Shown in pieces: positions 6,689-21,957 of a DNA stretch of 49,405 bases. The stretch is from Candidatus Rokuibacteriota bacterium. GTDB taxonomy: Bacteria > Methylomirabilota > Methylomirabilia > Rokubacteriales > CSP1-6. How positions within the stretch are numbered: the first letter of the stretch is position 1; the number at the start of each line of letters is the position of its first letter. Location: positions 1-49,405 of the forward strand of contig QHSP01000054.1 in NCBI GenBank assembly GCA_003220495.1, given 5' to 3'. The translations under genes were made by a program, and so were the position numbers. A model generated the notes under the pieces. It saw nothing but the letters and a program-made list of their open reading frames with translations, did no database searches and was not told where the DNA came from.

Positions 6689-7849
6689 TCAGCGACCGAG
6701 CCAGCGGACGGCGGCGCCGATCACCCCGGCGCCCGCGATCAGCCACACCGAGTTGATCCGCCACCTCAGCAAGAGCACGGTCGCCGCGAGCGCCAGTCCT
6801 GCGCTCGGCCAATCGACTACCGCGCTTCGCCCGAGCTGCCAGGTGACGGCCAGCATCAGCCCGATCGCCGCGACGTTCACACCGTCGAGGAACGCGCTCA
6901 TCCAGGCCGAGCCACGAAGGCGAGGGACGATCGGGTAGACGATGGCGACGAACACGAACGATGGAAGGAAGATCGCGACGGTGGCGAGCGCGGCGCCGCT
7001 CGTCCCCGCCACGACGTACCCGATGAAGGTCGCCGTCGTGAAGACGGGGCCCGGCGTGAGCTGACCGACCGCGACAGCGTCGATCAGCTGCTGGTCGGTG
7101 AGCCACCCGAGTCGCACCACGAAGTCGTTACGCAGGAACGCGAGCAGCACGTAGCCGCTTCCATAGAGCACCGCGCCGATCTTCAGGAACACGAAGAACA
7201 GGCTGACCGGATCGACCGCGACCGAGGCCACCGCCGCCGGAAGCGCAGGCGCGCCCAGCCCCGGCGCGAGCGCCAGCACGGGCGGCCGCGGGCGGACGCG
7301 CCAGCCGTTGCGGGCGGCCATGACGAGGAGCCCGGCCCCGAGCAATAGCACGATCTCGTTGAATCCGGCGGCGTAGAGCACGAGGACGCTCGCGCCGACG
7401 GCCGCGTGCAGCCACCCCTTGACCGCGGTGTTCGCCAGCGCCCAGATCGCCTGCAGCACGACCGCGATGATGACGGGCTTGATCCCGTACAGGAGCCACG
7501 TCGCCTCCGGCGTCGATCCGTACCGCACGTAGGCCCAGGCGATCGCCAGCGAGATCAGCGCCGCCGGCAGGATGAACAGCGACCCGGCCAGGACGAGGCC
7601 GCGCCAGCCCGCGCGCGCATAGCCGAGGTAGATCGCCAGCTCGGTCGAGGTGGGGCCGGGGATGAGGTTGCTCGCGCCGAGCAGATCGAGGAACTGCTGC
7701 TCGGTCACCCACCGCCGCCGTTTCACCACCTCGTCGCGCATGAGCGCGATGTGGGCCGCCGGCCCGCCGAACGCGACGACGCCGAGCTTCAGGAAGAGCC
7801 CGGCGACTTCGCGCAGCGATCCTGGGGCAGGCGGCTCGACGTCGCGCAC
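6689..7849 (-). CDS. chrA: Chromate transporter (ChrA family, two-domain)
   Basis: A 386-residue inner-membrane protein with two homologous halves. Both carry the family signature: FGGPAAHIALM with LIPGPTSTELAIYLGY in the first half, and LYGSGYVLLAFLR with QLTPGPVFTTATFIGY in the second. The family exports chromate, and sulfate analogues have been proposed for some members. The start is GTG 7849; the frame runs on for about 100 further codons, but those overlap hyuB in the opposite direction and read like shadow sequence. It is divergent from hyuB. Confidence 0.88.
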   Translation of the reverse strand: MRDVEPPAPGSLREVAGLFLKLGVVAFGGPAAHIALMRDEVVKRRRWVTEQQFLDLLGASNLIPGPTSTELAIYLGYARAGWRGLVLAGSLFILPAALISLAIAWAYVRYGSTPEATWLLYGIKPVIIAVVLQAIWALANTAVKGWLHAAVGASVLVLYAAGFNEIVLLLGAGLLVMAARNGWRVRPRPPVLALAPGLGAPALPAAVASVAVDPVSLFFVFLKIGAVLYGSGYVLLAFLRNDFVVRLGWLTDQQLIDAVAVGQLTPGPVFTTATFIGYVVAGTSGAALATVAIFLPSFVFVAIVYPIVPRLRGSAWMSAFLDGVNVAAIGLMLAVTWQLGRSAVVDWPSAGLALAATVLLLRWRINSVWLIAGAGVIGAAVRWLGR

Positions 7850-7940
7850 CCGGCGATCATACTCAAACCGCCTTCCGCCCGATATCGTGCGTCCCCAAGC
7901 AAGTTGACCGCGGCGACGCGATCGCGTAGATCTGGAGGCC

Positions 7941-9581
7941 ATGAGCGATCCCGTGACCGTGTCGGTCCTGACGCATCGCCTCGAGGCCATCGTGCAGGAG
8001 ATGGGCGAGGCCATGCTGCGCACGGCGTACTCCCAGATCCTGAACTCCAGCCGCGACTTCTCGACAGCGCTCTGTGACGCGGGCGCCAGGCTGATCGCGC
8101 AGGCGGAGCACGTGCCGATCCACGTCGGCGCGATCCCGTGGGCGGTCGAGTCCGTGCGCGACGCCTTCAAGGGGCGGGTGAGGCCGGGCGACGTCTACCT
8201 CCTGAACGACCCCTATCACGGCAACAATCATCTGCCTGATCTGACGGCGTTCGTCCCGGTGTTCGTCGGCGACGAGGTCGCCTTCTGGTCGGTCAACCGC
8301 GCCCACCAGAGCGACATCGGCGGCTCGACCCACGGCGCCTACAACCCGGGCGCGACCGAGATCTGGCAGGAGGGTCTGCGGATCACGCCGCTGAAGCTCT
8401 ACGATGCCGGCGAGCTGCGCGACGACGTGCTGCGCATGATCGCGACGAATGTCCGCCACCCGCACGACTTCATGGGCGACCTCCGAGCGATGATCGGCTC
8501 GGCGCGCGTCGGCGAGCGGCGCCTGCTCGCGCTGACCGCCGACTACGGCGCGGCGACGGTCCTCGAGGCCGTGGACGAGATCCTCGACGGCGCCGAGCGC
8601 CGGGCGCGCGCGTGCGTCGCCACCTGGAAAGACGGCGTCTATCGCGGCGAGACGGTCCTGGACGACGACGGCCACGAGTTTACCGACATCTGGATCCGCG
8701 CGACGGTGACCAAGCGCGGCGACGCGCTGACGGTCGATCTGAGCGACTGCCATCCTCAGGTCTCCGGATTCGTCAACTCGTCGTTCCCGAACACGATGTC
8801 GGCGGTTCACATGGCCTTCGCGTATCTCATCGATCCGCGGACGCCGAAGAACTCGGGCACGTTCCGGCCGGTCAAGGTGATCGCGAAGCAGGGCACGATC
8901 GTCTGGCCCTTTCCGCCGGCGCCGGTCACGCTCGCGACGAATCACTGCGCTCAGGAGATTGCCGAGGCGATGATCCGGGCGCTGGCTCCGGCGTGCCCGG
9001 AGCGCGTGCTCTCGGGATGGGGCCGCCGCTTCCGCATCGCGATCAAGGGGATGAATCCGCGGACGCGCAAGCCGTTCATCTGGCACATGTTCCACGCGCG
9101 GCCGGGCGGCGGCGCGAGCGCGGCCGGCGACGGCTGGGAGACCGCGGGCGAAGGGCAGGCGGCCGGCGGGATCAAGTTCGGCAGTGTCGAGGTCGCCGAG
9201 GCGCGGTTTCCGCTGACGTTCGAGCGCCACGAGTTCCGCCCGGATTCCGCCGGCGACGGAATGCATCGCGGCGGCGTCGGGGCGGTGCTGCGCCTGCGGG
9301 TCGACATCGAGGACCCGGCGGTCGCCAACACCGCGGGCGATGGCGTTCGCCACGCGCCGTACGGGCTTCTCGGTGGCAAGGACGGCCTGCCCCATCGCTA
9401 TCGGCTCGAGTCGCGCGGCCGCCCGATCCGCGTCTTGAAGACCAAGGAAGTCGGAGTTCCCGTGCGGAAGGGCGACGTGTTCCTGATCGAGTCTTCGGGG
9501 GGCGGCGGCTATGGTCCACCTTCGAAGCGGACCCGTCAGGCTCGCGCGAGCGACCGGGAGAACGGCTTCGTGAAGAAGTAG
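7941..9581 (+). CDS. hyuB: Hydantoinase B/oxoprolinase family protein
   Basis: A 546-residue protein. It begins with the family N-terminus (VLTHRLEAIVQEMGEAM, SQILNSSRDFSTALCD), continues with GDVYLLNDPYHGNNHLPD and ends with SSGGGGYGPPSKR. HyuB works with HyuA in ATP-dependent opening of hydantoin or 5-oxoproline rings, or as part of acetone/acetophenone carboxylase-type enzymes; the exact substrate cannot be told from sequence. The matching A subunit is not adjacent but lies 4 kb downstream on the same strand, split from it by several unrelated genes. Confidence 0.9.
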   Translation: MSDPVTVSVLTHRLEAIVQEMGEAMLRTAYSQILNSSRDFSTALCDAGARLIAQAEHVPIHVGAIPWAVESVRDAFKGRVRPGDVYLLNDPYHGNNHLPDLTAFVPVFVGDEVAFWSVNRAHQSDIGGSTHGAYNPGATEIWQEGLRITPLKLYDAGELRDDVLRMIATNVRHPHDFMGDLRAMIGSARVGERRLLALTADYGAATVLEAVDEILDGAERRARACVATWKDGVYRGETVLDDDGHEFTDIWIRATVTKRGDALTVDLSDCHPQVSGFVNSSFPNTMSAVHMAFAYLIDPRTPKNSGTFRPVKVIAKQGTIVWPFPPAPVTLATNHCAQEIAEAMIRALAPACPERVLSGWGRRFRIAIKGMNPRTRKPFIWHMFHARPGGGASAAGDGWETAGEGQAAGGIKFGSVEVAEARFPLTFERHEFRPDSAGDGMHRGGVGAVLRLRVDIEDPAVANTAGDGVRHAPYGLLGGKDGLPHRYRLESRGRPIRVLKTKEVGVPVRKGDVFLIESSGGGGYGPPSKRTRQARASDRENGFVKK

Positions 9582-9619: not shown

Positions 9620-9826
9620 CTACGAGGCGGACGCGCCGGCCGCGGGCACTGCGAGTCCCGGTCGGCTGCCTTGCAACCGCTGTCCGAGGCTGATCAGCGC
9701 CAACCCCAGCCGCACGCGTAGCGGCGACGGCGGTCTCAGCGACGCCGCCAGCTGCTGTCGCGCGAGCGCGGCGTGGAGTTCGCGCAGATGCTCCTTCGCC
9801 AGCCACTCGACCAGATAGCCGTTCAT
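9620..9826 (-). CDS. Small protein of unknown function
   Basis: A 68-residue protein starting MNGYLVEWLAKEHLRELH. It has an amphipathic helix at the start and a positively charged hydrophobic stretch in the second half (PLRVRLGLALISLGQRL), so membrane association is possible. I do not recognise a named family. The ATG overlaps the stop of the gene before it (ATGA), which supports real, coupled translation; an ATG six bases earlier is also possible. It is the second gene of a two-gene operon behind the candidate ECF promoter at 10255-10283. Confidence 0.65.
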   Translation of the reverse strand: MNGYLVEWLAKEHLRELHAALARQQLAASLRPPSPLRVRLGLALISLGQRLQGSRPGLAVPAAGASAS

Positions 9827-10227
9827 GTCCATGACACCGACTCTCCTCTCGCCGGGACCAGCACGGGGGCTCGCCGCGGCACCGGCCTCTCCTGCCGGGT
9901 CAGCACGATCTCGAAGCGCCCCGGTCTCGTCCGCTCGGACTCGCTGAAGGCGCCGTACGCGGCTTCCACCACCGGCGTGACGATCTCGGGACGATCGAGC
10001 GGCACCGGGATCGTGAGCCGCCAGCCACCCCAGAAACTCCGGCGCACGACCGGTGAGACGACGGCGCCGAGCGCGCCGTGGATCGCGTCGGTCACCGCGA
10101 TCTGGCGCGCGATCTCCGCGAGTTGCCGACGCTGGCGCCAGGTCGCGAGTCGGAGCGCCGCGACGAGCAGCGCGATCGGGGACAGCGCCACCAGCAAGGA
10201 CAGCGTGCTGAACACTACGGATTGCAT
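9823..10227 (-). CDS. Membrane-anchored protein of unknown function
   Basis: A 134-residue protein. One N-terminal membrane helix (about 5-27, LLVALSPIALLVAALRLA) is followed by a basic segment and a soluble part that includes FWGGWRLTIPVPLDRPEIVTPVVEAAYGAF. I cannot assign a family. ATG 10227 has GGAGGAGGG a few bases before it. The gene follows the methyltransferase fusion gene on the same strand and lies behind a promoter-like sequence nearly identical to that of the sigma-factor operon, so it may be a target of that sigma factor. Confidence 0.72.
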   Translation of the reverse strand: MQSVVFSTLSLLVALSPIALLVAALRLATWRQRRQLAEIARQIAVTDAIHGALGAVVSPVVRRSFWGGWRLTIPVPLDRPEIVTPVVEAAYGAFSESERTRPGRFEIVLTRQERPVPRRAPVLVPARGESVSWT

Positions 10228-10254: not shown

Positions 10255-10283
10255 GACACCGCGGGGAGGCGGGTGTGAAACGG
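10255..10283 (-). promoter_or_regulatory. Candidate ECF-sigma promoter of the small membrane operon
   Basis: Reading the minus strand, CCGTTTCACA (10283-10274), 12 bases, then CGGTGTC (10261-10255). The same two boxes with the same spacing occur before the sigma gene at 11831-11859. Counting TTTCAC and TGTC as the core boxes gives a 16-bp spacer, the usual ECF distance. The predicted start site leaves a leader of about 20 bases that carries the GGAGGAGGG ribosome-binding site. Confidence 0.6.
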
Positions 10284-10294
10284 AGGAGCGAAGG

Positions 10295-11266
10295 CTACGC
10301 GGCGAGCGGGTGGAGATCCGGGCGGCACGCCGAGCAGGGCACGAGTCCGAGCGCGCCAGCGAGCTCGCGGGAGGCCAGCAGGGTGACGGGGCCGATCGGA
10401 CGGCGCGCGATGTCGCCGCAGGTCGGCAGGCAGTACTCGTGCTGATCGTTGCGGTCGTAATGATAGAGCGTGTTCCGCGCGACGCGCGAATCGCTCCGCT
10501 TGCCGATCGCCTGGATGCCCTCGACGGCCAGGAGCTGCTGCTTGAGCCCCACCTTGTCGCCGGAGTAGCCGGTGAGCGCGCCCGAGGTTCCGATGATGCG
10601 GTGGCAGGGCACCACGATCGGCAGCGGATTCCAGCGCAGCGCCTGCGCGACGGCCCGTGTGGCCGCGGGCTTGCCGATCTCGGCGGCGATCCCGGCGTAC
10701 GACGTGACCGCGCCGTATGGAATCGCGGCCGTCGCGCGGAGCACCGCGCGATGGAAGTCGCTGCGCGCCAGGCGCAGGTCGAGCGGCCACTCCAGCCGCG
10801 TGCGGTCGCCGCGCAGGTACTCGAGGAGCTCGCGGTAGAGCGCCTCGATCTCGGCGCCGTCCTCCTGCGCCTCGACGCCGCCCACGCGGCTCAACCGCGA
10901 CATGCTCAGGTCGGTTCCGCCGTGGAGATACTCGACGAGCGATACGCCGTGCTCCGAGCGCGCGATGAGAATGTGGCCGAGCGGAGAGGGGAACACCCGG
11001 TAGGAGACCAGACGCGACCTCAGATCGGCCAGCCTCGACTCGAGCCCCTCGCGTGCGCGCGCCACGCTGTCCGCCGCCGCCGGCCCGCGCCGGAGCACGC
11101 CCACCACGCCCTCGATCTCGCGATAGCGATGGAACTCCCGCCGGCAGGCGTCGCAGGAGTCGATGTGGTGCTCGACGCGGCGCGAGGCGCCGGGCTCGGC
11201 GTCGCCCGTCGCCGCGGCGACGAGGTCCGGTTCGATCTCGAGGCACCCGTTCGGTTTACGCGTCAT
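10295..11266 (-). CDS. Anti-sigma zinc finger - O6-alkylguanine methyltransferase - Ada zinc domain fusion
   Basis: A 323-residue protein with three parts. (1) Residues 1-60: a zinc-binding anti-sigma (ZAS/zf-HC2) motif, C8 and H34-x3-C38-x2-C41. (2) Residues 85-255: a complete Ogt/MGMT domain with IPYGAVTSYAGIA, the RAV arginine-finger helix and the acceptor Cys221 in VVPCHRIIG, which removes alkyl groups from O6-alkylguanine. (3) Residues 275-318: four cysteines C279-x3-C283 and C311-x2-C314 followed by RPD, matching in order and spacing the N-terminal domain of E. coli Ada, whose first Cys accepts methyl from phosphotriesters. Here that domain sits at the C-terminus and no AraC domain is present. 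The ATG overlaps the sigma gene stop (ATGA). Frame extensions upstream to 11650 are inside the sigma gene and were rejected. Confidence 0.85.
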   Translation of the reverse strand: MTRKPNGCLEIEPDLVAAATGDAEPGASRRVEHHIDSCDACRREFHRYREIEGVVGVLRRGPAAADSVARAREGLESRLADLRSRLVSYRVFPSPLGHILIARSEHGVSLVEYLHGGTDLSMSRLSRVGGVEAQEDGAEIEALYRELLEYLRGDRTRLEWPLDLRLARSDFHRAVLRATAAIPYGAVTSYAGIAAEIGKPAATRAVAQALRWNPLPIVVPCHRIIGTSGALTGYSGDKVGLKQQLLAVEGIQAIGKRSDSRVARNTLYHYDRNDQHEYCLPTCGDIARRPIGPVTLLASRELAGALGLVPCSACRPDLHPLAA

Positions 11267-11823
11267 CGCGGTTGCTCCATGTTGAGTGGGCTCGTTTCGA
11301 CGCCCCGGGCGGGCGGAAGCTCGTGACCGTTGAGGCTCAGCCGGATCTTGCGGAGCGCTTGAAAGACGTGCGCTCGCGCGCTCTCCGCCGAGCAGTCGAG
11401 GCTTCGGCCGATCGCATCGTAGTCGAGGTCGTGGATCTTGCGCATGACGAAGGCCAGGCGCTGCTTGAGGGGAAGACCCTGCACCGTGGATTCCAGAAGC
11501 GTCCGGGCCTCGCCGAACCGCGCTTCGTCCTCCGGTCCTTCGGGATCGGCTTCTCGGCTCTCCACCGACACGGCCTGGTGAGCGACCCGCCGGCGTTTCT
11601 CGGATCGAAAGTGATTCCGGCCCAGGTTGGTCGCGATCGCGAAGAGCCACGCCCGAACGTTGGCGTCGGGTCCCAGGGTCTTGTAAGCCCGATAGGCCCG
11701 GAGGAACGTCTCCTGCGAGAGGTCTTCGGCCTCCGCGGCCCGGGAGGTGACCCTCCGCAGATAGCGATAGATCTCGGCGTGATGCGCGCCCACGATCGTC
11801 TCGAACGGTTGTTCGCCCATCAT
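11263..11823 (-). CDS. ECF-type RNA polymerase sigma factor
   Basis: A 186-residue sigma-70 family member with only regions 2 and 4. Region 2 contains AEDLSQETFLRAYRAY and RAWLFAIATNLGRNHFRSEKRR; region 4 contains LPLKQRLAFVMRKIHDLDYDAIG and a helix-turn-helix. It is the first gene of a two-gene operon with the anti-sigma/methyltransferase fusion, the standard arrangement for a sigma factor and its cognate anti-sigma. ATG 11823 (or the next codon, 11820) was chosen; the long upstream extension runs into the divergent gene. A promoter-like sequence ends seven bases before the ATG, suggesting a leaderless or nearly leaderless, self-regulated transcript. Confidence 0.9.
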   Translation of the reverse strand: MMGEQPFETIVGAHHAEIYRYLRRVTSRAAEAEDLSQETFLRAYRAYKTLGPDANVRAWLFAIATNLGRNHFRSEKRRRVAHQAVSVESREADPEGPEDEARFGEARTLLESTVQGLPLKQRLAFVMRKIHDLDYDAIGRSLDCSAESARAHVFQALRKIRLSLNGHELPPARGVETSPLNMEQPR

Positions 11824-11830
11824 CTCTGAA

Positions 11831-11859
11831 GACACCGCCGGGGCCCGGTTGTGAAACGG
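11831..11859 (-). promoter_or_regulatory. Candidate autoregulated ECF promoter of the sigma operon
   Basis: On the minus strand, CCGTTTCACA (11859-11850), 12 bases, then CGGTGTC (11837-11831). It shares boxes and spacing with 10255-10283. The downstream box ends seven bases before ATG 11823. Confidence 0.6.
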
Positions 11860-13790: not shown

Positions 13791-15832
13791 GCCGACGTTA
13801 CCGCATCGGCATCGACGTCGGCGGCACCTTCACCGACCTCGTCGCGGTCGACGAGCTCGGCTCTCTCGCCCTCGCCAAGTGCGCCTCGACACCGCCTGAC
13901 CCGTCGCTGGGTCTGATCGACGGGCTGGCGCTCCTGGCCGCCGAGCTCGGCACCGACCTCCACGGGCTGCTCGGTGAGACCGAGTCGATCGTGCATGGCA
14001 CGACGGTCGCGACCAACGCGCTCCTCGAGCGCAAAGGGGCGAAGGTCGGCCTCCTGACGACCGAGGGACATCGCGACGTCATCGAGATGCGCGAGGGGCT
14101 GAAGGACGACCGCTACAACCTCAGAATGCCGCCTCCCGTGCCGCTCGTGCCGCGCGTCCGCCGCCTCGGAGTGCGCGAGCGCATGCGCTTCGACGGGACG
14201 GTCGCGATCCCGCTCAACGCACGCTCGCTCCAGGCCTCCATCGCGTCGCTGGCGAAGGCGCGCGTGGAGGCGGTGGCCGTCTGCTATCTGCACTCGTATC
14301 GGAATCCGCGGCACGAGAAGCAGACCGGGCGCGCCCTGACGCGGCGGCTTCCGGGCGCGTACGTGTCGCTGTCGTCCGAGGTGCTGCCGCAGATCAAGGA
14401 GTACGAGCGGGTCTGGACAACGGTGGTGAACGCGTACGTCGGGCCCACGCTCGCGAACTATCTGAAGAATCTGGCGGCGCGCCTCGCGAGCCACGGCTAC
14501 CGCGGCGACGTCCTGATCATCCAGTCGCACGGCGGCGTGGCGCCGGTGCGTGAGTCGACGCGCCTGGCCGCGGGCGCCGTGCTGTCGGGGCCCGCCGGCG
14601 GCGTCGCCGCGGGGCGCTACTGCGCCCGGCTCCTCGCCGAGCCGAACCTCATCACCTTCGACATGGGCGGGACGTCGACGGACATCGCGCTCCTCCAGGG
14701 TGGCGAGCCGCAGCTGACCGGGGAAAAGACGATCGGCGTCGCGAAGGTCGCGCTGCCGGCGATCGACATCCACACGCTCGGCGCCGGCGGCGGCTCGGTC
14801 GCGTCGGTCGACGCGGGAGGCATTCTCCACGTCGGCCCGGAGAGCGCCGGCGCCCAGCCGGGTCCCGCGTGCTACGGCAAAGGCGGCGCCCGCGCGACGG
14901 TGACCGACGCGAACCTGGTGCTCGGGTTCCTCGATCCCGCGAACTTTCTCGGCGGTCGCATTGGGCTCGACGCTCGCGCGGCGCGCACGGCGGTGGACGC
15001 GATCGCGCGGAAGCTCGGCACGACGGCGCTCCGGACGGCCGAGGGCATCTCGCGCGTCGTCAACACCAACATGGCGGAAGGGATGAAGATCGTCTCGGTC
15101 CGCCGCGGCGTCGACCCGCGCCGCTTCGCGCTCGTCTCGTTCGGCGGCGCCGCCGGCCTGCACGTGACGGAGGTCGCGCGGCTCCTCGAGATCCAGCGCG
15201 TCGTCGTGCCGTCGGTCGCCGCCGTGCTCTCGGCTTGGGGGATGCTGGCGACGGACCTTCGCTACGAGCTCGTGCGATCCCACGTGAGCGAGGTGGGGCG
15301 GATGACGGCGGCCGGCCTGCGAAAGCTCTTCGCGACGCTCGAGCGCGAGGGCAAGAAGCGGCTCGCCCGCTTCGACGGCCCGGTCACGGTGCGTCGCGCG
15401 CTCGACATGCGGTACGGCGAGCAGATCTTCGAGATCCAGGTGGATCTGGACGGCGTGGATCTCCAGGCCGCGGACCTCATGGAGCAGGTGGCCGAGCGTT
15501 TCCATCGGCGCCACGAAGCGCTCTATGCCTATAGCGCGCCGGGACAGGAGGTCGTCGTCGTCAACGCGCGGGTGGCGGTCGTCGGCGCGCTTCCGGTGCT
15601 GCCGGCCGGCGCGGGCGCCGTGGGTCGGGGCGGGGCCACGTCCTCCGCGCGCCGTCGCGTCTGGCTGGGGGACTGGGTCGAAGCGCCGCTCTACCGCATG
15701 GAGGCGCTTACCGCCGGGCTGGAGGTCAAGGGTCCGGCGATCTTCGAGTCGGCGACGACGACGGTGCTCGTGCGAGAGTCCGAGCGCGTGACCGTCACGC
15801 CGCACGGCTGGCTCGACATCCGGCTCGGCTGA
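13787..15832 (+). CDS. hyuA: Hydantoinase/oxoprolinase subunit A, CTG start
   Basis: About 681 residues. The conserved family N-terminus RYRIGIDVGGTFTDL (phosphate-binding motif of the actin-like ATPase fold) is encoded from 13796, well upstream of the first ATG at 13991. In that frame the nearest upstream stop is TGA at 13754, and between them there is no ATG, GTG or TTG; the only near-cognate start is CTG 13787, with GGAGGA seven bases before it. Other motifs are HGTTVATNALLERKGAKVGLL, FDMGGTSTDIALL, GAGGGSVASVDAGG and GPACYGKGG. It works with HyuB in ATP-dependent cyclic amide hydrolysis or a related carboxylase. Starting at 13991 would remove the ATP-binding loop. Confidence 0.88.
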   Translation: MSRRYRIGIDVGGTFTDLVAVDELGSLALAKCASTPPDPSLGLIDGLALLAAELGTDLHGLLGETESIVHGTTVATNALLERKGAKVGLLTTEGHRDVIEMREGLKDDRYNLRMPPPVPLVPRVRRLGVRERMRFDGTVAIPLNARSLQASIASLAKARVEAVAVCYLHSYRNPRHEKQTGRALTRRLPGAYVSLSSEVLPQIKEYERVWTTVVNAYVGPTLANYLKNLAARLASHGYRGDVLIIQSHGGVAPVRESTRLAAGAVLSGPAGGVAAGRYCARLLAEPNLITFDMGGTSTDIALLQGGEPQLTGEKTIGVAKVALPAIDIHTLGAGGGSVASVDAGGILHVGPESAGAQPGPACYGKGGARATVTDANLVLGFLDPANFLGGRIGLDARAARTAVDAIARKLGTTALRTAEGISRVVNTNMAEGMKIVSVRRGVDPRRFALVSFGGAAGLHVTEVARLLEIQRVVVPSVAAVLSAWGMLATDLRYELVRSHVSEVGRMTAAGLRKLFATLEREGKKRLARFDGPVTVRRALDMRYGEQIFEIQVDLDGVDLQAADLMEQVAERFHRRHEALYAYSAPGQEVVVVNARVAVVGALPVLPAGAGAVGRGGATSSARRRVWLGDWVEAPLYRMEALTAGLEVKGPAIFESATTTVLVRESERVTVTPHGWLDIRLG

Positions 15833-19982: not shown

Positions 19983-20647
19983 TGGGCTTCACTGGCGAGC
20001 TCTGGAAGTCGATCGAGCCCACCTACGCGGCGATCCTGCGCCATCCATTTCTCCGCGGCTTGACGGATGGCTCACTCCCGCGCGAGAGCTTCAAGTTCTA
20101 CGCGGTCCAGGACGCGCTCTACCTGCGCGAGTTCGCCCGCGCGCTGTCACTCGCAGGGGCCCGGGCGCCCCAGGACGACTGGATCATCATGTTCAACGAG
20201 CACGCCGCCGGCGCGCTCAAGGTCGAACGCTCGCTTCACGAAAGCTTTTTCCAGGACTTCGGACTGACGCAGGAGGCCGTCGCGTCGACACCGCTGGCGC
20301 CGACGAATCTGGCGTACACGAGCTACCTGCTGGCCGTTGCGTATGGCTCGCCCTTCCACGAGGCGCTCGCGGCGCTGTTGCCCTGCTACTGGATCTACTG
20401 GGAGGTCGGCAAGGAGCTCGAGCGCGCCGGCTCTGCCGACCCGCTCTACAAGCGATGGATCGGCACGTATGCTTCGGAAGAGTTCGGCTCTGTCGTGCGA
20501 GCGGTGCTCTCGGCAGCGGACCAGGTGGCGGCTGGCTTGAGGCCGCCGGAGCGGGAGGCGATGCGGCGGCATTTCGTCACGACGAGCCGCTATGAGTGGA
20601 TGTTCTGGGACATGGGCTTGCGGCGCGAAACGTGGCCCAGCTGGTGA
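19982..20647 (+). CDS. tenA: TenA-family thiaminase II / aminopyrimidine aminohydrolase
   Basis: A 221-residue helical protein that hydrolyses thiamin-breakdown aminopyrimidine for salvage. The catalytic residues fall at the same numbers as in Bacillus TenA: Asp44 (AVQDALYL), Cys135 (LLPCYWIYWEVG) and Glu205 (SRYEWMFWDMG). The ATG overlaps the stop of the hydratase. No thiamin riboswitch is visible upstream, and linkage to a crotonase and a TPR gene is unusual. Confidence 0.9.
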   Translation: MGFTGELWKSIEPTYAAILRHPFLRGLTDGSLPRESFKFYAVQDALYLREFARALSLAGARAPQDDWIIMFNEHAAGALKVERSLHESFFQDFGLTQEAVASTPLAPTNLAYTSYLLAVAYGSPFHEALAALLPCYWIYWEVGKELERAGSADPLYKRWIGTYASEEFGSVVRAVLSAADQVAAGLRPPEREAMRRHFVTTSRYEWMFWDMGLRRETWPSW

Positions 20648-20651
20648 GTCG

Positions 20652-21137
20652 GTGAGCAGGCCGGAGCGCTTCGCGCAAGCCACGGAAATCTGGCAGGAAG
20701 CCTATCGTCACCAGATGCAGGGGGAGCTCGACCGCGCGATCGAGCTCTATCGCCGCTCGATCGAGGTTTGCCCGACGGCCGAGGCCCACACCTTCCTCGG
20801 CTGGACGTATAGCTTCCAGGGCCGCCTCGACGAGGCGACGCACGAGTGCATGCGGGCCATCGAGGTCGATCCTGACTTCGGAAACCCTTACAACGACATA
20901 GGGTGTTACCTGATGCAGCAGGGCAAGCTCGACGAGGCCGTGCCCTGGCTCGAGCGGGCAAAGCAGGCCAAGCGCTACGAGCCGCGGCAATTCCCCTACA
21001 TGAATCTCGCGCGGATCCATGTAAAACAGGGGAGGTGGTGGGACGCGTTGCGCGAGTTCGAAGGCGCCGTGCGTCTGGCTCCCGGCGACACTGAACTCCG
21101 GCGGGCGCTGCACTCGCTTCGCGGTCGTCTGAACTAA
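20652..21137 (+). CDS. TPR-repeat protein
   Basis: A 161-residue soluble protein built of about three to four tetratricopeptide repeats (for example ATEIWQEAYRHQMQGELDRA, FLGWTYSFQGRLDEAT, NDIGCYLMQQGKLDEAVP, NLARIHVKQGRWWDAL). Such repeats mediate protein-protein contact. The start is GTG 20652, four bases after the tenA stop, so it is the third gene of the hydratase-tenA operon. The partner is unknown. Confidence 0.85.
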   Translation: MSRPERFAQATEIWQEAYRHQMQGELDRAIELYRRSIEVCPTAEAHTFLGWTYSFQGRLDEATHECMRAIEVDPDFGNPYNDIGCYLMQQGKLDEAVPWLERAKQAKRYEPRQFPYMNLARIHVKQGRWWDALREFEGAVRLAPGDTELRRALHSLRGRLN

Positions 21138-21306
21138 CGTGGCCGTCAGCGGGCTGACTCCGGTGTGTCGCGAAGCTGAACACCGTGGACGCACGCCGCG
21201 GCAGCTTTTCCGCAGAAACACTCACGTCCAAACCTGGCGACCCGGTTGCATTGGTGTCGTCGCGAGCCCGACCGCTACAGGTCTGGGCACCAATGAGGAG
21301 GTGGCT

Positions 21307-21957
21307 ATGCGACAGGCTGTGATGGTCGGGATGGTGCTACCTGCTGCGCTGATGCTCGTCAGCGGCTGCGCCACCAAGAAGTGGGTGACCGAGTACGTCG
21401 GCAAGAAGGAAGTCGAGATCGACCAGCGGTTCACCGGAGTCGACAAGAAGGTGACCGAAGAGACCCAGCGGGTCGACCAGAAGGTCGAGGGAGTGGATAC
21501 CCGGCTGAAGTCGGCCGAGGGATCGCTCACCCAGACTAAGGACCGCGCGGATACCGCTTATACCAAGGCCGACGAGACGAACAGCCGGTTGACCCGGCTG
21601 TGGTCCAACCGCAACTCGCGGAACCAGGTCGAGACCTACCAGGTCCTGTTCGGCTTCGACAAGTGGGATCTGGGCGACAATGCCCAGACCACGCTGGTCA
21701 GTATCATCAAGGAGCTGAAGGAGAACCCGAATCTGACGGTCGATCTCCAGGGCTACGCCGACCCCGTCGGATCGTATCCCTACAACGTCGGACTGAGTCA
21801 GCGTCGGGTCGAGTCGGTTCGTCGCTTCCTCGTCGAGAAGGGCATCGAGCTCCCGAGGATCCACCTCATCGGGCTCGGCCCCATCGCAGAGAAGGGGACG
21901 CCCAACGCCGAGAAGCGGAAGGTGACCGTGCGGTTGATGGTCAACAAGGAAGACTAG
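21307..21957 (+). CDS. OmpA-family outer-membrane lipoprotein
   Basis: A 216-residue protein. The signal peptide ends in a lipobox (MLVSGC), a long predicted coiled coil (about 25-100, heptad-like VDKKVTEETQRVDQKVEGVD) follows, and an OmpA C-terminal peptidoglycan-binding domain (about 110-215) contains LQGYADPVGSYPYNVGLSQRR and GLGPIAEKGTP. It should sit in the outer membrane and grip the cell wall. GAGGAGG lies just before ATG 21307. The 169 bases upstream contain no gene. Confidence 0.9.
   Translation: MRQAVMVGMVLPAALMLVSGCATKKWVTEYVGKKEVEIDQRFTGVDKKVTEETQRVDQKVEGVDTRLKSAEGSLTQTKDRADTAYTKADETNSRLTRLWSNRNSRNQVETYQVLFGFDKWDLGDNAQTTLVSIIKELKENPNLTVDLQGYADPVGSYPYNVGLSQRRVESVRRFLVEKGIELPRIHLIGLGPIAEKGTPNAEKRKVTVRLMVNKED

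Follow-up and report, generated by a model that had tools for sequence, protein, structure and literature searches.

A putative autoregulated ECF sigma/anti-sigma response to DNA alkylation in Rokubacteria, with an anti-sigma domain apparently fused to an alkyl-capturing repair enzyme

Background

The bacterial alkylation responses characterised to date (the E. coli Ada protein or EcAda, AdaA and Cada2) read a methyl-cysteine via a DNA-binding activator. The locus studied here raises the question of whether an anti-sigma factor may do this reading. It lies in the window, i.e. the whole stretch of 49,405 nucleotides that was analysed, and its host belongs to a lineage of uncultured soil bacteria that is known mainly from metagenome-assembled genomes (MAGs); its close relatives are Candidatus Rokuibacteriota MAGs. 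A preliminary description had proposed that an ECF sigma gene overlaps a three-part fused gene, whose product would release the sigma factor when it is alkylated.

Results

The sigma gene and the fused gene

The open reading frames and their translations agree with this layout, and an ATGA overlap joins the end of the sigma ORF to the start of the fused ORF, both on the minus strand:

11263..11823, minus strand: ECF sigma factor gene, 186 aa with regions 2 and 4 (Sigma70_r2 3e-17, Sigma70_r4_2 4e-10)
10295..11266, minus strand: ZAS - O6-alkylguanine transferase - Ada_Zn fusion gene, 323 aa, proposed alkylation-sensing anti-sigma factor
11012..11266, minus strand: putative ZAS/class I anti-sigma domain, residues 1-85, ligands C8, H34, C38 and C41
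10502..11011, minus strand: O6-alkylguanine-DNA alkyltransferase (AGT) domain, residues 86-255, acceptor Cys221 (codon 10604-10606) in PCHR, PF01035 3e-28
10316..10453, minus strand: Ada-type zinc domain, residues 272-317, with C279 (codon 10430-10432), C283, C311 and C314

The sigma start codon is at 11823 (or 11820). The minus-strand block is flanked by hydantoinase B (7941-9578, plus strand) and hydantoinase A (13991-15829, plus strand), as if it had been inserted between them, and a chromate transporter gene is found in the window at ~6692-8092 (minus strand).

The three domains of the fused protein

The residue numbers given beforehand for the zinc finger, the methyl acceptor and the four Ada-like cysteines were all right, and only the fourth ZAS ligand, C8, had been missed. 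In the window protein the AGT domains pass the Pfam cut-offs, whereas zf-HC2 (18.8 bits, cut-off 22.2) and Ada_Zn (14.8 bits, cut-off 23) are both sub-threshold. At E<=0.01 the 31 relatives searched gave AGT matches in every case (31/31), Ada_Zn in 26/31 and zf-HC2 in 21/31. A full-length AlphaFold2 model of the fused protein had a pLDDT of 85.

Regarding the middle domain, the PF01035 match, the PCHR acceptor and the catalytic Asn/Tyr/Arg/Glu (N213, Y190, R204 and E249, whose roles we take to be those established for AGT enzymes) place it among the O6-alkylguanine-DNA alkyltransferases, and the model matches AGT structures (Ogt/Ada-C/MGMT) with a VIA Z of 17-19.

The C-terminal domain has the four cysteines of the EcAda type, including the acceptor, in an N-terminally truncated Ada_Zn which in the window member is missing the initial third of the Pfam model and falls below its cut-off. 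A profile of this domain alone, searched against all PDB chains, returned N-Ada structures (E 5e-6) plus one chance match, and in the profile alignment with N-Ada C279 corresponds to the Ada methyl-acceptor Cys38. Residues 249-317 of the model match methylated N-Ada (1u8b) with a VIA Z of 5.9.

The sequence match of the N-terminal domain is weak, the best PDB profile match having an E of 0.1 and the RsrA model an E of 0.006. Its ligand spacing is C-x25-H-x3-C-x2-C, which is RsrA-like, and the model shows four helices (6-20, 25-37, 39-60 and 62-85). Residues 6-69 of the full-length model match the anti-sigma factor RslA with a VIA Z of 6.1. When the ZAS was predicted alone (pLDDT 89.5), Foldseek placed anti-sigma domains (RsiW, ChrR, RslA) at ranks 1-8 among 350,542 PDB chains, with weak E-values of 0.3 to 5, and the VIA Z was 6.5 with RslA, 6.3 with MucA and 5.7 with RsiW. 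Such middling Z values are common for small helical domains, and therefore the anti-sigma identity rests jointly on the ligands, the topology, the ranking and the sigma neighbour. An Hx3Cx2C motif with an upstream Cys in a four-helix N-terminal domain, an anti-sigma-like fold (of weak Foldseek E) and an adjoining ECF sigma gene are the features of class I (ZAS/ASDI), so that the N-terminal part of the fused protein appears to be an anti-sigma domain which would hold the sigma factor in check.

Redox sensing is common among soluble zinc anti-sigmas (PMC7406223), and the RsrA type of the C8-H34-C38-C41 spacing, together with the weak match to the RsrA model, raises a different reading of this domain, namely a thiol switch through which the sigma factor answers disulfide/oxidative stress, the AGT and Ada_Zn domains being fused repair cargo that the response induces. 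This would leave unexplained why two independent alkyl-acceptor domains are fused to the anti-sigma in every member, and we return to it with the target genes.

Finally, no member of the fused family, out of 31, had a Pfam match to an AraC-type helix-turn-helix. Because the AraC domain is absent, the fused protein is not an EcAda-type regulator.

Conservation and distribution

The preliminary description had asked whether relatives keep the three-part layout and the sigma neighbour. When 95 genomes of the phylum were searched with a profile, 49 gave matches, two of them with AGT-Ada_Zn only, so the three-part protein is present in ~47 genomes (including a few with the gene split or cut by contig ends), belonging to family f1, family f4 and two f9 genomes. 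The sigma gene lies directly upstream in 32 of the 33 distinct loci, the remaining locus being at a contig end, and the ATGA overlap is found in 24 of the 33; we infer that both genes are co-transcribed. The absence from G003 and G005 is only apparent: contig ends fall there, and either the downstream gene or the sigma gene with its element (see below) is present. Outside the phylum, the 298 Gemmatimonadota genomes searched gave AGT-only matches and no full-length homologue; phyla beyond these two were covered by a close-relative scan only.

Wherever present in the 32-33 sequences, all four ZAS ligands, C221 with the adjacent H222, and the cysteines C279, C283, C311 and C314 are invariant, and so are the AGT residues N213, Y190, R204 and E249 among the relatives. 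The four Ada zinc cysteines stay invariant within a divergent part of the protein, which bears out the expectation that the Ada-like cysteines would be conserved.

A promoter-like element before the sigma gene

When the DNA upstream of the sigma gene was compared, TTTCAC-N14-GGTGTC (GGGGTC in some) was found before it in nearly every relative. The window has two copies:

11831..11856, minus strand: putative auto-promoter element TTTCACAACCGGGCCCCGGCGGTGTC, its -10 end 7 bp upstream of the sigma start codon
10255..10280, minus strand: putative second promoter element TTTCACACCCGCCTCCCCGCGGTGTC, an exact match, at an equivalent position in many relatives

The first copy falls within the limits of the preliminary description, which reached 11859; the element itself is a new addition to that reading. 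Across relatives it usually ends 7-12 bp before the sigma start codon, and since it ends so near, the sigma transcript is probably leaderless. Two tandem copies, 124 bp apart, precede the sigma gene in one relative (L152, G037:C32).

The motif statistics come from a genome pattern search with a reversed-pattern control. The exact pattern has 4 copies in the 6-Mb genome of the window, where composition predicts 0.3 and the reversed control gave 0. Across the order (38 genomes) we counted 72 exact copies versus 3 in the control; 21 genomes of the same class outside the order gave 4 versus 2. With the spacing freed to N12-16 and a longer -10, all 43 matches within the order (43/43) had N14 and the control had 0; the GGGGTC variant gave 24 matches versus 1. 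Beyond the pattern searched for, the C preceding GGTGTC and the last A of CGGTGTCTYA are conserved, each in 94% of the assigned sites. A 2-mismatch search was at background level (17 versus 15 in the control), and therefore only sites with <=1 mismatch were used.

Genes behind the element

Among the 113 distinct sites in the DNA analysed, 93 precede one of six recurrent gene families: the sigma operon (28), a membrane protein (24), DUF2652 (21), DUF1706 (12), Usp (5) and a second ECF sigma (3), where the figures 28 and 3 are corrected for nine sigma sites that cross-matched the second ECF sigma. In the genome of the window, the five sites with <=1 mismatch belong to the sigma gene, the membrane protein, the second ECF sigma, DUF2652 and a DUF1706-ogt operon. 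The membrane-protein operon lies in the window itself, directly after the fused gene and behind the second element:

9823..10227, minus strand: small membrane protein, regulon gene, 134 aa, behind site 10255-10280
9620..9832, minus strand: small overlapping ORF, 70 aa, second gene of the membrane-protein operon

Homologues of the membrane protein are found behind the same element in ~20 relatives, where similar small ORFs follow the gene, and no Pfam family matched the 134-aa protein. The DUF2652 proteins (L105 and homologues, start ...GFLVLADISGFTAFV...), one of the target families found most consistently behind the element, are reminiscent of class III nucleotide cyclases. The second ECF sigma (198 aa; L104, L086), behind the same TTTCAC-N14-GGTGTC, opens the possibility of a sigma cascade.

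In five species including that of the window (G000, G003, G005, G006 and G010), the element in its GGGGTC form is followed by a DUF1706 (ClbS/DfsB) gene and then by a canonical ogt, so that the element before the sigma/anti-sigma pair also precedes a second operon for alkylation repair. In the other genomes DUF1706 stands alone behind the element, without ogt. ClbS, of the DUF1706 family, detoxifies the genotoxin colibactin (PMC10693628), and by analogy one may guess that the regulon protein acts similarly. Neither alkB nor alkA nor tag was among the genes seen behind the element, and most of the regulon members (DUF2652, the membrane protein and Usp) have no known tie to alkylation.

Overall, the element suggests autoregulation of the sigma operon and marks a small regulon that includes a second O6-alkylguanine transferase, in support of the claim that the operon turns itself on. 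Likewise, the conserved adjacency, the ZAS ligands and the anti-sigma-like predicted fold support the proposed pairing of sigma and anti-sigma.

These targets also bear on the redox reading. No thioredoxin or low-molecular-weight-thiol gene was recognisable among the recurrent targets, and ogt is present. Moreover, the same genomes have a separate sigma/AGT-Ada_Zn system without ZAS. We therefore regard the redox reading as unlikely.

Other AGT and Ada_Zn systems in the same genomes

This separate system, which we call the type-2 operon, is found in the genome of the window on contig C42 at ~20431-21600 (minus strand; L012 / L188), where an ECF sigma gene (152 aa) lies directly upstream of a 235-aa AGT with a C-terminal Ada_Zn, here above the Pfam cut-off, and without ZAS. 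The sigma gene is upstream in 24 of 25 type-2 loci (L188-L212), most of which have a conserved element TTCCACCC...CGTATAAC (CGTATA(A/C)C end) just before the sigma start, and the operon often shares genomes with the window system. It is possibly ECF122-like and, compared by description, may be nearer to ECF122 than the window system is.

The type-2 operon pairs an ECF sigma with AGT-Ada_Zn minus the ZAS, and ECF122 is listed as a sigma-MGMT pairing without anti-sigma in PMC8999054. Both would suit the idea that the fused protein is just a repair enzyme whose ZAS brings repair to the transcribing RNA polymerase without inhibiting the sigma factor, which would be constitutive or otherwise controlled. 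The four-helix ZAS, however, best resembles the inhibitory class I anti-sigma domains, and the standard anti-sigma operon is laid out as here, with an auto-promoter and with the anti-sigma gene coupled by ATGA to the preceding sigma gene. Thus, we consider this idea very improbable and retain the inhibitory role.

Two further forms were seen. The protein of G051 (L176:1375-2082), which belongs to another family of the class, f5, was examined as a candidate for the same system and rejected, as it joins an AGT to a C-terminal Ada_Zn but has neither a ZAS nor an adjacent sigma gene. A stand-alone AGT-Ada_Zn form is also present in G056. Such a stand-alone protein is likely to be the ancestral repair form of the sensor part.

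A canonical AdaA (Ada_Zn + AraC helix-turn-helix) is encoded in the genome of the window at C55:89335-89526 (L220; also L215-L222 and L237). Full-length Ada_Zn proteins occur in 8 of 9 genomes of the genus and in some others, and were AdaA wherever checked. Most congeners have both AdaA and the window system, but many other family members with the window system lack AdaA. The statement that AraC is missing, with an anti-sigma motif in its place, therefore holds for the fused protein, but the genome also encodes AdaA separately; since both are found in the same genomes, the window system is not simply a replacement of AdaA.

Discussion

Proposed mechanism

Taking the parts together, we consider it probable that the whole system mediates an adaptive response to DNA alkylation through an autoregulated ECF sigma/anti-sigma pair. 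A little more cautiously, we also favour the view that the anti-sigma itself is a suicide DNA-alkyl acceptor, whose irreversible methylation would free the ECF sigma and turn on a dedicated regulon, apart from the AraC-type Ada paradigm.

In the resting state, the N-terminal ZAS of the fused protein would hold the sigma factor. When DNA is alkylated, Cys221 would irreversibly take the alkyl group from O6-alkylguanine and Cys279 of the Ada-type zinc domain that from methylphosphotriesters. One of these alkylations would alter or destabilise the protein so that ZAS helix 4 releases the sigma factor. In the models this helix (~62-85) is directly continued by the first AGT strand (86-94), and the capture of damage might thereby be coupled mechanically to the release of the sigma factor. 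The free sigma would recognise TTTCAC-N14-GGTGTC, make more sigma and more of the repair/anti-sigma protein, and turn on the membrane protein, DUF2652, DUF1706 (with the second ogt in some species), Usp and the second ECF sigma. Fresh unmethylated protein would replace the spent protein, and because of this the response would go off once the damage ends.

Regarding the responsible cysteine, methyl-cysteine switches have precedents in Cys38 of EcAda and in Cys267 of Cada2, in PCHR (PMC10957082). The former corresponds to C279 here and the latter to C221, so the two precedents point to different cysteines. Alkylation of the AGT domain could be the whole switch, by suicide inactivation, unfolding or proteolysis of the anti-sigma, leaving the Ada_Zn as a structural or DNA-docking zinc module only. 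The activation of Cada2 via its PCHR cysteine (PMC10957082), the position of the AGT domain directly after ASDI helix 4 in the model and the truncation of the Ada_Zn domain speak for this, but it accords less well with an invariant C279 aligned with Ada Cys38 and with four zinc cysteines that are kept despite divergent surroundings. We hold this variant to be possible, though not the likelier course; it is a variant of our best explanation and is compatible with the adaptive-response reading.

The system is real, conserved and regulon-bearing, and the preliminary description was right in outline and is now on firmer ground: its pairing, layout, cysteines and autoregulation all found support, and its central chemical step, the methylation-driven release of the sigma factor, is one that we too infer.

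Significance

Sensing such damage through an apparent anti-sigma that is part of a repair enzyme which permanently binds alkyl groups, and thereby turning on a small, conserved group of defence genes, as these results suggest, would be a mode not reported before. If true, bacteria would have a further, separate solution, with a sigma factor under the control of damage capture, and ZAS anti-sigmas would gain an irreversible covalent input. It also yields a testable promoter sequence and a regulon for a lineage known mainly from MAGs, and candidate alkylation-stress roles for DUF2652, the DUF1706 protein and an uncharacterised membrane protein.

Comparison with known systems

The preliminary description knew of no system of this form. 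In the literature searched we found no fusion of a ZAS to an alkyltransferase and an Ada zinc domain, and no paper that brings together ECF sigma, anti-sigma and O6-methylguanine, so the statement stands there; it has to be qualified by ECF122, which a review (PMC8999054, citing Casas-Pastor 2021) lists with O6-methylguanine methyltransferase neighbours and no anti-sigma. ECF122 as described there shares with the window system an ECF sigma gene in a conserved neighbourhood with an O6-methylguanine transferase gene, whereas the window MGMT protein carries a ZAS; the two are set apart by description.

Cada2 of Caulobacter (PMC10957082) is also an AGT-containing alkylation-response regulator with a PCHR cysteine as possible switch. 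However, Cada2 is a DNA-binding activator, and the window protein has a fused anti-sigma domain instead.

The window protein resembles EcAda in having an Ada-type zinc domain and an O6-alkylguanine transferase in one chain, and the system resembles it in its predicted positive feedback, in the alkylation-repair gene(s) of its regulon and in a damage-capturing repair protein that would be its own inducer. It differs from EcAda by the lack of an AraC-type DNA-binding domain and by an Ada_Zn that is C-terminal and truncated, and it uses an ECF sigma/ZAS pair with a sigma-type promoter, not an Ada box.

Finally, RsrA, ChrR, RsiW and RslA have the same N-terminal four-helix zinc domain and a gene downstream of and coupled to that of an ECF sigma, and in ChrR a C-terminal domain is likewise appended to the ZAS. 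What separates the window protein from these class I anti-sigmas is its sensor part, which is a suicide alkyltransferase together with an Ada zinc domain.
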